NCBI RefSeq assembly: GCF_015644725.1
Contig: NZ_CP064795.1
Coordinates: 2,478,501-2,542,500 of the forward strand
DNA length: 64,000 nt
DNA from: Salinimonas marina
GTDB lineage: Bacteria; Pseudomonadota; Gammaproteobacteria; Enterobacterales; Alteromonadaceae
Reading direction: 5' to 3'
The notes under the pieces are model-generated. The model was given only the letters and a program-made list of their open reading frames with translations, made no database searches and was not told where the DNA came from. Shown here one piece after another: positions 3,239-34,322 of this stretch. Made by a program: the position numbers and the translations under genes. The stretch's first letter is position 1, and each line of letters opens with the position of its first letter.

Positions 3239-4487
3239 CACCTCGGGCCTCATCCCGGGCCAGCGCCAGCGCATCACACAAAGCGCTGATATCCTGCGGT
3301 GTATGCTGCGCACTCAGGGTAATACGTAAGCGATCCGTGCCTTTGGGTACCGTAGGATAACGGATTGCCGGGACCCAGATCCCCCGGGCCTTTAGTCCTT
3401 CACTCATTTGTAACGCCGCTTTCGGACTGCCGGCCACTATGGGTTGAATCGCACTTTCAGAAGCCCCTAATGCCAGCCCCTGACCGGCCGCCTGCTGCCT
3501 GAAAACCGCGATATTATGGTGCAGTGTCTGGCGTTGCCCGCTGGTGGCGATATGCTGTAATGAATATAAAGAGGCCAAGGCCTGAGCCGGGGGCATGGCG
3601 GTGGAATAGATGTATTCACGAGCACTGTTTAACAGATAGTCGATAAGATCCTGCGAGCCGGCGACAAACGCGCCGCCGGTGCCGATGGCTTTACCAAAGG
3701 TGCCCATCAGTACCGGGACCTCGGCCTGCGACAGCTGATACTGTTCGGCGCTGCCTAAGCCTGTTTCGCCCAAAACGCCAAACCCATGAGCATCATCTAC
3801 CATTAACCAGCTTTGATGCTGTTTACACAATGCCACCAGTTCGGGCAAAGGTGCACAGTCGCCATCCATACTAAAAATACTTTCGGTGGCCACCAGGGTA
3901 TCGGGCGTATTATCGGCTTCAGCCCGCTCTGTGAAAAATCGGGTAAGATGCGCTACATCATTGTGCCGGAAGCGTTTAAGCTGAGCGCCACACCCCAGCG
4001 CACCATCAATAAACGAGGCATGCATGTATTTGTCGGCGAGCAACAGCCCTGAGCGGGAAGACAGCCCTGAGCCGGAGGACAGCCCTGAGCCGGAGGACAG
4101 CCCTGAGCGGGAAAACAGCCCTACGTCTGCAAACAAGGCCTGGCAGATCGCCTGATTGGCGGCAAAACCAGAGTTAAACAACAATACCGCTTCCCGGTTG
4201 AGCTGTTCGGCCAGATAGGTTTCAAGGGCCTGATGGGCTTGTGAGTAACCAGTCACCAGCGGCGAAGCACCACTGCCGCCGCCAAATTGTGCCAGTCCCT
4301 CGACCCAGCACTGCAACAGGCCTTCATGCTGACGCATACCCAGATAATCATTGCTGGCAAAATTCAGATAATGCTGACCTGCGACACAAATAATGCCATC
4401 TTTTTCATACTCAATGGGTGTTCGGTGGCGTAGGTAGCCCTCGTTCTGCTTTTGCTGCAAAAGCTCGGCAATCCAGTCAAACGCCAT
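3231..4487 (-). CDS. bioF: 8-amino-7-oxononanoate synthase with a repeat insertion
   Basis: 418 residues, longer than the usual 380-390. It condenses pimeloyl-ACP with L-alanine using PLP. Conserved features include FASNDYLG, GSGASPLVTG, LFNSGFAANQA, MVDDAHGFGVLG and the PLP lysine in GTFGKAIGTGGAF. Between LFADVGLF and LLADKYMHAS the protein carries about 24 extra residues, made of repeated Ser-Gly-Leu-Ser-Ser-Gly/Arg hexapeptides encoded by an 18-bp tandem repeat. In other BioF proteins this is a short loop joining a helix to the strand before the cofactor-binding region. The start ATG overlaps the bioB stop by 1 nt. Confidence 0.95.
   Translation of the reverse strand: MAFDWIAELLQQKQNEGYLRHRTPIEYEKDGIICVAGQHYLNFASNDYLGMRQHEGLLQCWVEGLAQFGGGSGASPLVTGYSQAHQALETYLAEQLNREAVLLFNSGFAANQAICQALFADVGLFSRSGLSSGSGLSSGSGLSSRSGLLLADKYMHASFIDGALGCGAQLKRFRHNDVAHLTRFFTERAEADNTPDTLVATESIFSMDGDCAPLPELVALCKQHQSWLMVDDAHGFGVLGETGLGSAEQYQLSQAEVPVLMGTFGKAIGTGGAFVAGSQDLIDYLLNSAREYIYSTAMPPAQALASLYSLQHIATSGQRQTLHHNIAVFRQQAAGQGLALGASESAIQPIVAGSPKAALQMSEGLKARGIWVPAIRYPTVPKGTDRLRITLSAQHTPQDISALCDALALARDEARGDD
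4043..4122 (-). repeat. 18-bp tandem repeat (4.4 copies) inside bioF
   Basis: Units start at 4043, 4061, 4079 and 4097, with a partial unit at 4115. The plus-strand unit is ACAGCCCTGAGCSGGARR. Units 2 and 3 are identical, and units 1 and 4 differ from them by one to three bases. The period is a multiple of three, so it adds in-frame hexapeptides to BioF. Confidence 0.95.
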
Positions 4488-31370: not shown

Positions 31371-31622
31371 TGGCGGAGAGAGATTCACTCGCGCTTTACA
31401 TGGCGCTCGCCCTACGGGCAGCTGGCGCTGTGCAAAACGCCTTCCCTACCGTTTTGGCGAACCCGAGGGTTCTCATCACATTCTAAACCACCATAAACAC
31501 ATAGAGAGGGATTCCCTCGCGCTTTACATGCCGCTCGCCCTACGGGCAGCTGGCGCTGTGCAAAACGCCTTGCCTGCCGTTTTGTCGAACCCGTGGGTTC
31601 TCATCACATTCTAAACCACCAT
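31371..31622 (-). repeat. Two decayed repeat units downstream of tRNA-Ser
   Basis: Two units of about 128 bp, starting near 31371 and 31499, share a nearly identical core (from CTCGCGCTTTACATG at 31388 and 31516 to TTCTCATCACATTCTAAACC). Each begins, in plus orientation, with a fragment of the tRNA-Ser 3' end: TGGCGGAGAGAGATTC in the first, AGAGAGGGATTC in the second. The core holds hairpins (GCCCTACGGGC, GAACCCGWGGGTTC). Relative to tRNA-Ser transcription these are downstream, in the 3' trailer. A more degraded third copy may lie at 31330-31360. Confidence 0.85.
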
Positions 31623-31661
31623 AAACACCAAAGCCCCGCACAAGGCGAGGCTTTGGTGTTT
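31623..31661 (-). terminator. Hairpin downstream of tRNA-Ser
   Basis: Inverted repeat AAACACCAAAGCC / GGCTTTGGTGTTT around a GC-rich loop, starting 6 nt past the tRNA 3' end. It is symmetrical, with AT-rich flanks on both sides, and is the likely end of the tRNA-Ser transcript. Confidence 0.7.
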
Positions 31662-31666
31662 AAATT

Positions 31667-31757
31667 TGGCGGAGAGAGAGGGATTCGAACCCTCGATACG
31701 CTATTAACGTATACACACTTTCCAGGCGTGCGCCTTCAGCCACTCAGCCATCTCTCC
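31667..31757 (-). tRNA. tRNA-Ser (anticodon GGA)
   Basis: 91 nt including an encoded CCA. The acceptor stem starts GGAGAGA and closes with TCTCTCC before GCCA; the D arm is TGGCTGAGTGGCTGAAGGC; the anticodon loop CTGGAAA gives GGA. A long variable arm follows (typical of serine tRNAs), and the T arm is GAGGGTTCGAATCCCTC. It reads UCC and UCU codons. Confidence 0.97.
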
Positions 31758-32908: not shown

Positions 32909-33301
32909 AACATACTGACCCGATTGACGACAGCTAAAAGGGCGGCAATTATACCCGACTGTCATAAAAATTTCATATCGTAAACGTATGAATTATTCCA
33001 TCACATTCAAGGTACCCCCAGCCGGTTTTTCACTTCTTTGAATTAACGATCTGTAATGCCTGGGTTAATTGGCACTTCACACGATATACAGCAAGCTGAG
33101 ACCGGGTGTAACAGACTTTCGCTCATGGCTTGCACCCCAAACCATGAGTGCTGTTAAAAGCCGTCCCCGTTGTGTGTAGCCCTGTTGTCTGGGGCAGTGC
33201 TATTGAGAAACCTTTATGAGGGGGGGTGTTTGGGCCCGCCTATAAACGGCTGCATGCGTATCGCTCTAATACAGGCTTATTGGCTACCTCACCTGTAAAG
33301 T
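32909..33301. other. Intergenic region upstream of nadA
   Basis: About 390 bp between nadA and the tRNA-Lys repeat array. It should contain the nadA promoter. No gene, tRNA or riboswitch was recognised; short frames here have no ribosome site and run into the repeats. Confidence 0.5.
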
Positions 33302-33991
33302 GCCAGGTCGTGCTGGATTACTTGACTGCTAGCGCAGTCTGCGCCCTTTCGGGCCGTGCTAAAGCACGTTCACCTGCGCTACGCTTGGTGTCGAACCGCT
33401 TCGCTGGTTCAAATCCGGCGCGAGCACGATATGTTCTTTTTGAAAAGTGTGTAACTGGACTATTTCGATAAGATGGTGGGTCGTGCTGGATTACTTGACT
33501 GCTAGCGCAGTCTGCGCCCTTCCGGGCCGTGCTGAAGCACGTTCACCTGCGCTACGCTTGGTGTCGAACCGCTTCGCTGGTTCAAATCCGGCGCGAGCAC
33601 GATATGTTCTTTTTGAAAAGTGTGTAACTGGAACGTACGAATAAGATGGTGGGTCGTGCTGGATTACTTGACTGCTAGCGCAGTCTGCGCCCTTTCGGGC
33701 CGTGCTAAAGCACGTTCACCTGCGCTACGCTTGGTGTCGAACCGCTTCGCTGGTTCAAATCCGGCGCGAGCACGATATGTTCTTTTTGAAAAGTGTGTAA
33801 CTGGACTATTTCGATAAGATGGTGGGTCGTGCTGGATTACTTGACTGCTAGCGCAGTCTGCGCCCTTTCGGGCCGTGCTAAAGCACGTTCACCTGCGCTG
33901 CGCTTGGTGTCGAACCGCTTCGCTGGTTCAAATCCGGCGCGAGCATAATGTGCTCTTTTTGAGAAGTGTTAACTGGAACGTACTAATAAGA
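33302..33991 (-). repeat. Four tandem 173-bp units carrying the tRNA-Lys 3' end
   Basis: Units are marked by GTCGTGCTGGATT starting at 33307, 33480, 33653 and 33826, each exactly 173 bp apart. The same sequence in the first real tRNA-Lys begins at 33998 (172 bp on). Units 2-4 begin with the last 19 nt of tRNA-Lys (in plus orientation TGGTGGGTCGTGCTGGATT), and the outermost keeps only 14. After that the units diverge from the tRNA. They contain strong hairpins (CGTGCTAAAGCACG, GCCCTTTCGGGC, AACC...GGTT) and a second imperfect copy of the T arm in opposite orientation. They lie downstream of the tRNA genes, so would be in the primary transcript. Units are almost identical, with a few substitutions. 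Confidence 0.97.
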
Positions 33992-34067
33992 TGGTGGGTC
34001 GTGCTGGATTCGAACCAGCGACCAATTGATTAAAAGTCAACTGCTCTACCAACTGAGCTAACGACCC
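33992..34067 (-). tRNA. tRNA-Lys (anticodon UUU), copy nearest the repeats
   Basis: 76 nt with encoded CCA. Acceptor stem GGGTCGT / ACGACCC, D arm AGCTCAGTTGGTAGAGCA, anticodon loop CTTTTAA (UUU), T arm GCTGGTTCGAATCCAGC. Third gene of a three-copy tRNA-Lys transcript. Confidence 0.98.
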
Positions 34068-34137: not shown

Positions 34138-34213
34138 TGGTGGGTCGTGCTGGATTCGAACCAGCGACCAATTGATTAAAAGTCAACTGCTCTACCAACT
34201 GAGCTAACGACCC
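34138..34213 (-). tRNA. tRNA-Lys (anticodon UUU), middle copy
   Basis: Identical 76-nt sequence to its neighbours with encoded CCA, 70 nt upstream of the next copy in the direction of transcription. The spacer contains a hairpin (CAGTAACCTGACGTTACTG) that may serve in processing. Confidence 0.98.
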
Positions 34214-34246: not shown

Positions 34247-34322
34247 TGGTGGGTCGTGCTGGATTCGAACCAGCGACCAATTGATTAAAAGTCAACTGCT
34301 CTACCAACTGAGCTAACGACCC
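34247..34322 (-). tRNA. tRNA-Lys (anticodon UUU), promoter-proximal copy
   Basis: Identical 76-nt sequence with encoded CCA, first in the transcript, 33 nt before the next copy. Confidence 0.98.

Follow-up and report, generated by a model that had tools for sequence, protein, structure and literature searches.

Architecture of the Array behind tRNA-Lys(UUU)

In the window, that is, the whole 64,000-nt stretch of Salinimonas marina DNA analysed here, a run of three tRNA-Lys(UUU) genes occupies the minus strand from 34322 to 33992. The two upstream genes (34247..34322 and 34138..34213) and the last one (33992..34067) were recognised by ARAGORN; the last, which also matched the Rfam family RF00005 with 78.2 bits, is the source of the 3' end that is copied in a tandem array lying directly downstream, and nadA and cpoB/ybgF (NCBIfam) flank this array. 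On the minus strand, unit 1 (33820..33991, 172 nt) is followed by unit 2 (33647..33819, 173 nt), unit 3 (33474..33646, 173 nt) and the outermost unit 4 (33306..33473, about 168 bp), each consisting of a trailer, an RtT-like hairpin core and a copy of the tRNA-Lys tail. Units 1–3 terminate in AATCCAGCACGACCCACCA, the final 19 nt of tRNA-Lys including the CCA (33838..33820, 33665..33647 and 33492..33474, respectively, on the minus strand), and the copy in unit 4 is truncated to 14 nt (33319..33306, same strand).

An earlier note on this DNA had described four units with a 173-bp period in the trailer of tRNA-Lys(UUU), one base missing beside the gene and 19-nt tails reduced to 14 in the outermost unit. 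TRF (33306-34010, period 173, 4.1 copies, 94% matches) and a repeat finder, which gave start-to-start spacings of 173 and 173, confirmed both coordinates and counts; measured from CCA to CCA, the units are 172, 173 and 173 nt long, so that the missing base is that of unit 1, and all 19 bases of the tail were found in units 1–3 and 14 in unit 4. It is unlikely that the array is an assembly artefact, since the genome is a single contig and the arrays of related species have other lengths. Searched against plasmid and phage collections, the array had no match in either. The window units are 96–98% alike over 300 nt in register, against about 77–88% identity for the longer array matches in species of the same genus, as in homogenised arrays, and one stretch of 195 nt folds with a z-score of −4.2 when compared to shuffled sequences.

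The possibility, also raised earlier, that the units encode small basic peptides found no support. On the tRNA strand the ORF of each Lys unit spans no more than 22 or 32 aa and starts with MLAPDLNQR (33359-33427, 33502-33600, 33705-33773 and 33878-33946), and inspection by eye revealed that this frame is interrupted by a TAG in the Lys units of two other species (L006 and L007). ORFs of up to 81 aa overlap the units on the other strand. With 32 aa as the longest ORF on the tRNA strand, the units encode no integrase, and integrases were encountered at certain other loci only.

Homology of the Units to RtT

All four units matched the RtT model (RF00391) when searched against the whole of Rfam with permissive settings, with E values from 2.5e-5 to 7.8e-4: unit 1 at 33820-33954 (37.7 bits), unit 2 at 33647-33781 (38.9 bits), unit 3 at 33474-33608 (39.1 bits) and unit 4 at 33301-33435 (33.1 bits). 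Since these scores lie below the Rfam gathering cut-off of 45 bits for RtT, we refer to the window units as RtT-like homologues and not as members of the Rfam family. The cut-off was passed by the Lys-locus units of three species of the same genus among the 15 loci scanned (L013, 55.3 bits; L010, 47.9 bits; L007, 45.9 bits).

As the Rfam model itself ends in a tRNA tail, a second model, R1, was built from 11 Lys-locus cores of the genus after trimming of the tail. In 62 chosen loci of other families, R1 matched 105 times at E values up to 0.1; the weakest of these include a few on the other strand, which are probably due to chance. The best matches were tRNA-Tyr arrays of another family (59.5 bits, E 1.1e-14), and units at tRNA-Tyr, Pro, Lys and Gln were recovered outside the family to which the genus belongs; within the genus, the units at Arg(CCG), Arg(ACG) and Glu were found well and those at Ser weakly. 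Because a model deprived of the tail finds the units of other tRNAs, the core is homologous across tRNA species and families.

The window array shares with the RtT repeats of E. coli tyrT the position downstream of a tRNA and on its strand, the tandem arrangement, a unit size of 130–180 bp, the CCA-bearing tRNA-tail end, truncated here only in the outermost unit, and the homologous hairpin core; it differs in its sub-cut-off score and in its host, a tRNA-Lys of the Alteromonas/Salinimonas group. When a window unit is aligned to RtT, the GGAU/AUCC pairing of the helix P1 is present, while two outer positions are without standard pairs. On this sequence evidence the homology of the array to E. 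coli rtT is near certain, and the parallel drawn in the earlier note was therefore right, and stronger than claimed. That the host tRNA and the lineage both differ from those of E. coli rtT, as the note also remarked, is not new in itself: RtTs adjoining Asn and Lys tRNAs have been published for Actinobacillus (PMC4986893). Sister genomes, in which related elements near tRNA genes were to be looked for, do contain them.

tRNA Tails across the Genome

The window holds a second tRNA with downstream copies of its tail, which is absent from the earlier note. Downstream of tRNA-Ser(GGA) (31667..31757, minus strand), and 2.3 kb from the Lys array, two 128-bp RtT-like units (31371..31628, minus strand) were identified by TRF and by R1 (locus L026), which scored them at 18.5 bits (E 0.002) and 14.6 bits (E 0.03); RF00391 did not detect them in a whole-genome search at E up to 5. 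The plan is that of the Lys array. The Ser units sit beyond a hairpin that, by eye, resembles a terminator, and the distal one closes with an imperfect copy of the tail of tRNA-Ser.

To see how common such copies are in this genome, the last 14 nt of 66 distinct tRNA genes (67 Rfam matches) were searched within 700 nt, allowing one mismatch at most and with the tRNAs masked. Downstream and in sense, 23 gene-copy pairs were found, corresponding to 15 distinct copies; upstream or antisense copies of the 66 genes numbered 0 in about 41 kb on either side, a difference that excludes chance. The first 14 nt of a tRNA were copied in two cases only, both at Gly. Nine tRNA loci carry tail copies. At Lys, Ser(GGA), Ser(TGA) and Arg(CCG) the cores are RtT-like, whereas the cores at Leu(CAG), Leu(CAA), Phe, Gly(GCC) and Val(TAC) are unlike RtT and gave no R1 match below E 0.3. 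At Leu(CAG) (L388, G000:C1:468400-470200) the array unlike RtT has five complete units of 159 bp, plus a partial one, with the tails of their own tRNA; of 60 relatives, 11 gave matches to it, and these 11 belong without exception to the same genus. One plan is common to the nine loci, while the cores differ.

In the eight genes with RtT-like units the T arm is always TTCGAATCC, as compared to 20 of the 66 tRNA genes overall (Fisher p 2e-5, a value inflated by counting the neighbours of one array separately); in other genomes, some RtT hosts differ from it by one base. The tail copies behind Phe, Leu(CAA), Gly(GCC) and Val(TAC) lie at loci L371, L387, L356, L357 and L353. By eye, the Phe and Gly copies comprise a longer 3' part of the tRNA, with an insert of about 20 nt in place of the T loop.

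The Local-Tail Pattern and Its Distribution

The relation between a unit and its host tRNA was analysed on 181 RtT matches among those listed, 171 of which could be placed, by comparing the end of each unit with the last 19 nt of the tRNA (up to 5 mismatches). A tRNA on the same strand lies upstream of 157 of these 171 matches, and in 140 of the 157 the unit ends in the tail of that very tRNA, again among the matches listed. The 140, which are units and not loci, represent 12 tRNA species for seven amino acids in 51 genomes and 86 genome-contig-tRNA groups. As for the 17 matches without a local tail end, many start with a tail and then break off, like the truncated distal units, and in some the end is off by one or two bases. 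Ending in CCA itself, the Rfam model may favour CCA ends; tail identity still follows the host. In the data examined the local-tail pattern is solid, and it is equally so, within the genome of the window, for its extension to cores unlike RtT.

The strand preceding the hairpins, which would form P1 with the tail, is more complementary to its own tail (7.4) than to those of other tRNAs (5.3) over 112 distinct units, and the own tRNA beats every other in 44 of them; for the nine Arg units and the single Ser(CGA) unit the match was no better to the own tRNA. Most tails, moreover, remain near-perfect while the cores diverge.

The remaining 14 of the 171 placed matches had no tRNA in the stretch examined (for instance G267:C5:485463, G305, G159 and G307). 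Among these orphan units, some lie at the end of a contig and others follow about 4 kb of sequence devoid of tRNAs.

RF00391 matches occur in 20 of 60 relatives and, within the order, in at least 62 of 295 genomes and at least 27 of 99 genera, the filters used for these counts being stricter, so that weak matches were missed. In one genome of another family, at a locus with a cpoB-like start (L149, by eye), a short RtT unit follows each of five tRNA-Lys genes. A survey of the nadA locus, for which 80 named loci were kept from 594, not all of them with a tRNA in the stretch, gave R1 matches at E up to 0.01 in 11 of the 80, one of which (L462) is far from its tRNAs. The positive loci include those of Alteromonas sediminis, Salinimonas chungwhensis, Serratia, Pantoea and Kosakonia, the last three with RtT-like units beside tRNA-Lys. 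The distribution is patchy and reaches distant families.

These data bear on one explanation of the arrays, namely a neutral by-product, in which tandem duplication or slippage makes and removes units endowed with neither function nor mobility. The homogenised appearance of the window array and the truncated units in which arrays end would be expected from such a process. Nevertheless, we hold it to be improbable: a single core stands behind 12 tRNA species in the genera counted above, which slippage cannot produce site by site, and tails are preserved where cores are not. The same applies to repeated slippage at the tRNA end, alternatively suggested as an origin in the earlier note, which can explain the copy number but not the spread of one core to a dozen tRNA species.

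RNA or DNA: Stems, Folding and Terminators

RtT is known as an RNA. It has its own Rfam family and is annotated as a small RNA in E. coli genomes, where a PGAP note describes it as 'processed from tyrT transcript'; Northern and RNA-seq signals for two RtTs of A. pleuropneumoniae, and an effect of the E. coli RtT on the stringent response, are reported in PMC4986893. The units could, thus, give rise to a trailer-derived non-coding RNA, cotranscribed with the tRNA, cut out during its maturation and acting in trans or in cis; as an example, P1 might compete with the acceptor and T arms and so tune the folding of the pre-tRNA under amino-acid stress.

Stems that serve in an RNA should contain more G-U pairs than A-C mispairs. 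Tolerant searching for hairpins, with 58 to 64 units for each stem, yielded GT:AC ratios of 11:12, 15:9, 6:3 and 3:4 for the individual stems, 35:28 in total, and 23:44 for P1, where the C-rich tail itself favours A-C. As controls, the acceptor and T stems of tRNAs (CCA-ended among 102 tRNAs) gave 52:7, from which the units differ with p 1e-4, these being fixed stems, unlike the hairpin search used for the units; 85 terminator-like hairpins, identified by a similar hairpin search, gave 14:3 (p 0.05, a weak comparison). The composition of the sense strand (G 0.33, T 0.16, A 0.25, C 0.27) is such that chance alone slightly favours A-C.

Folding was compared between the two strands of 64 units. 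The shuffle-corrected values were similar (z −3.25 for sense and −3.12 for antisense, p 0.50), whereas the raw energy was lower for the sense strand (−45.1 versus −43.9 kcal/mol; lower in 43 of 64, p 0.02), an advantage that comes mainly from outside the genus (39 of 50 units), the 14 units of the genus favouring the antisense strand. Taken together, stems and folding suggest no RNA-type asymmetry, though not strongly. Among the hairpins, CCC-GNA-GGG is the most constant, its columns being invariant or nearly so, and GNA triloop hairpins of this kind are highly stable as DNA. On the alignment of the 64 units RNAalifold gave no consensus pairs, we think because MAFFT could not register stems of unequal length; on 11 Lys cores it proposed 18 pairs, 6 of them with changes on both sides.

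The position of terminators speaks both ways. No sense-strand terminator was found between the tRNA-Lys of the window and its units, as would suit a cotranscribed RNA, and the stable fold of the 195-nt stretch and the lower raw energy of the sense strand agree with this. On the other hand, the core lies beyond a terminator-like hairpin at Ser, Arg and Pro tRNAs (by eye), the stems are without a G-U preference, the antisense strand folds equally well after shuffle correction, and an E. coli strain, SCU-301, lives without any tyrT unit. Moreover, in a table of an E. coli sRNA study (PMC4606813) the RttR row reads 97 ± 9% followed by four dashes, apparently no effect. A mutant of E. coli tyrT has also been described in which RtT and one tRNA-Tyr are lost (PMC12584984). 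On balance, a trailer-derived RNA is the main rival of the reading that we favour, and a less likely one.

Presence, Absence and Genomic Islands

In 25 rows sampled across 5,391 E. coli records, the number of annotated RtT units at the best match ranged from 0 to 4. Four of the 25 were without RtT and two of these were read: one (H25) is a different tRNA-Tyr locus, and the other (H22, strain SCU-301) is tyrT with truly no unit. In SCU-301 the sequence that follows tRNA 2 is the one that follows the last unit in strains with 1, 2 and 4 units, with 11, 11 and 6 mismatches of 180, respectively. Two of the four E. coli strains read have, in addition, an RtT between tRNA 1 and tRNA 2, and the SCU-301 spacer after tRNA 1 corresponds to the spacer beyond that RtT (1 mismatch in 34). 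According to these alignments, the tyrT unit is a precise indel between the CCA and the flank, and to judge from the sequence both a gain by insertion and a deletion between the 19-bp repeats fit it. Indeed, every presence/absence pair could also be explained as a deletion between two tails.

Two further genomes (G230 and G158; L148 and L146) contain a piece of tRNA-Lys, from the anticodon arm to GGTTCGA, which passes straight into the RtT core and then into the CCA tail. We read these as probable deletions between repeated GGTTCGA motifs; a T-loop insertion would look identical.

The islands that tyrosine recombinases insert at tRNA 3' ends keep the tRNA whole, with a second copy of its tail at the far end, and resemble the units in both respects; they differ in their att repeats, in the islands found here 29–47 nt against a 19-nt tail, while the units are shorter than 200 bp and tandem, with a common hairpin core and short ORFs. 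In the genus, the junctions at Arg(CCG) and Ser(GGA) are of two types, the island following either the tRNA itself or the tRNA, a unit and its tail. This made attractive the idea of decoy attachment sites, by which the units would draw island or phage integrases away from the real gene, or would be the remnants of islands. By eye and among the matches listed, island-like ends follow the unit tail directly at Arg(CCG) in G000 and G332, a similar integrase-like start with a broken frame follows the Ser(GGA) unit of G006, and similar ends follow the tRNA itself in several relatives without units; furthermore, the Ser(GGA) element of G009 and G018 encodes integrase-type domains. However, the att blocks measure 29–30 nt at Ser(GGA) (G009, G001 and G018, whose loci together with that of G006 are L242, L252, L260 and L245) and 45–47 nt at Arg (3 genomes), and so exceed the 19-nt tail, the island of G030 used the tRNA and not the unit, and the core is conserved across families. 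A decoy function is, thus, very improbable.

In G030 the island separates tRNA-Arg from the RtT remainder, so that the unit is seemingly older than the island; we read this order of events in favour of an old unit at the tRNA-Arg locus and against mobility.

In G000, the island-like end beyond the Arg(CCG) unit (L075, 2450-3640) carries a reverse transcriptase gene (Pfam RVT_1), and in relatives other sequence is seen, by eye, beyond similar Arg(CCG) ends.

A Possible DNA-Level Element

The explanation that we favour, and to which we assign about an even chance, is that the RtT units are a DNA-level mini-element residing in the T loop and leaving the tRNA intact. We prefer it on account of the homology of the core, the local tails, the fit of P1 in most host classes, the precise presence/absence pair and the lack of a G-U bias. 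A unit of about 130–180 bp would comprise a tail, from the T loop through the CCA, a trailer or terminator and a hairpin core. An occupied gene would then read 5' part, tail, trailer, core and tail, in which the incoming tail restores the tRNA and the displaced original tail closes the unit. In most host classes the first strand of the core could pair with the local tail to form P1, closing a structure that contains short hairpins, CCC-GNA-GGG among them. Tandem gain or unequal crossing over may supply extra copies, while deletion between the 19-bp tails may remove units. The insertion in the T loop, the action on (single-stranded) DNA and a recombinase supplied in trans are what we infer for such an element.

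Each cassette of an integron array ends in a structured recombination site, attC, and the units recall this arrangement; the cassettes here, by contrast, would be tRNA tails with their trailers. A similar resemblance may be seen to the REP/BIME palindromes, which are short hairpins with a patchy and tandem occurrence, from which RtT units differ in being tied to tRNA tails; rttR is itself listed among REP-bearing sequences in PMC12306157.

A bolder proposal, which we regard as rather unlikely, is that RtT and the units with unrelated cores are one kind of minimal mobile element, cassettes attached to the T loop. If true, a recombinase recognising folded DNA hairpins would move them in trans, the RtT, Leu, Phe, Gly and Val cores would be families of such 'tail cassettes', with the RtT RNA as a by-product, and the cassettes would be among the smallest integrative elements. 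In the accessible parts of the literature searched we met neither the local-tail rule nor a proposal that RtT acts at the level of DNA; Bosl and Kersten 1991 may contain part of this.

The pattern seen here, with a dozen tRNA species, local tails in nearly all cases, a precise presence/absence, stems free of a G-U bias and several unrelated cores on one plan, makes it testable whether the units are DNA elements exploiting the only portion of a tRNA gene whose duplication does no harm, and it could also account for scattered tRNA tails, usually read as island scars.

Elsewhere in the window, TRF also reported an 18-bp tandem repeat with 4.4 copies at 4043-4122.
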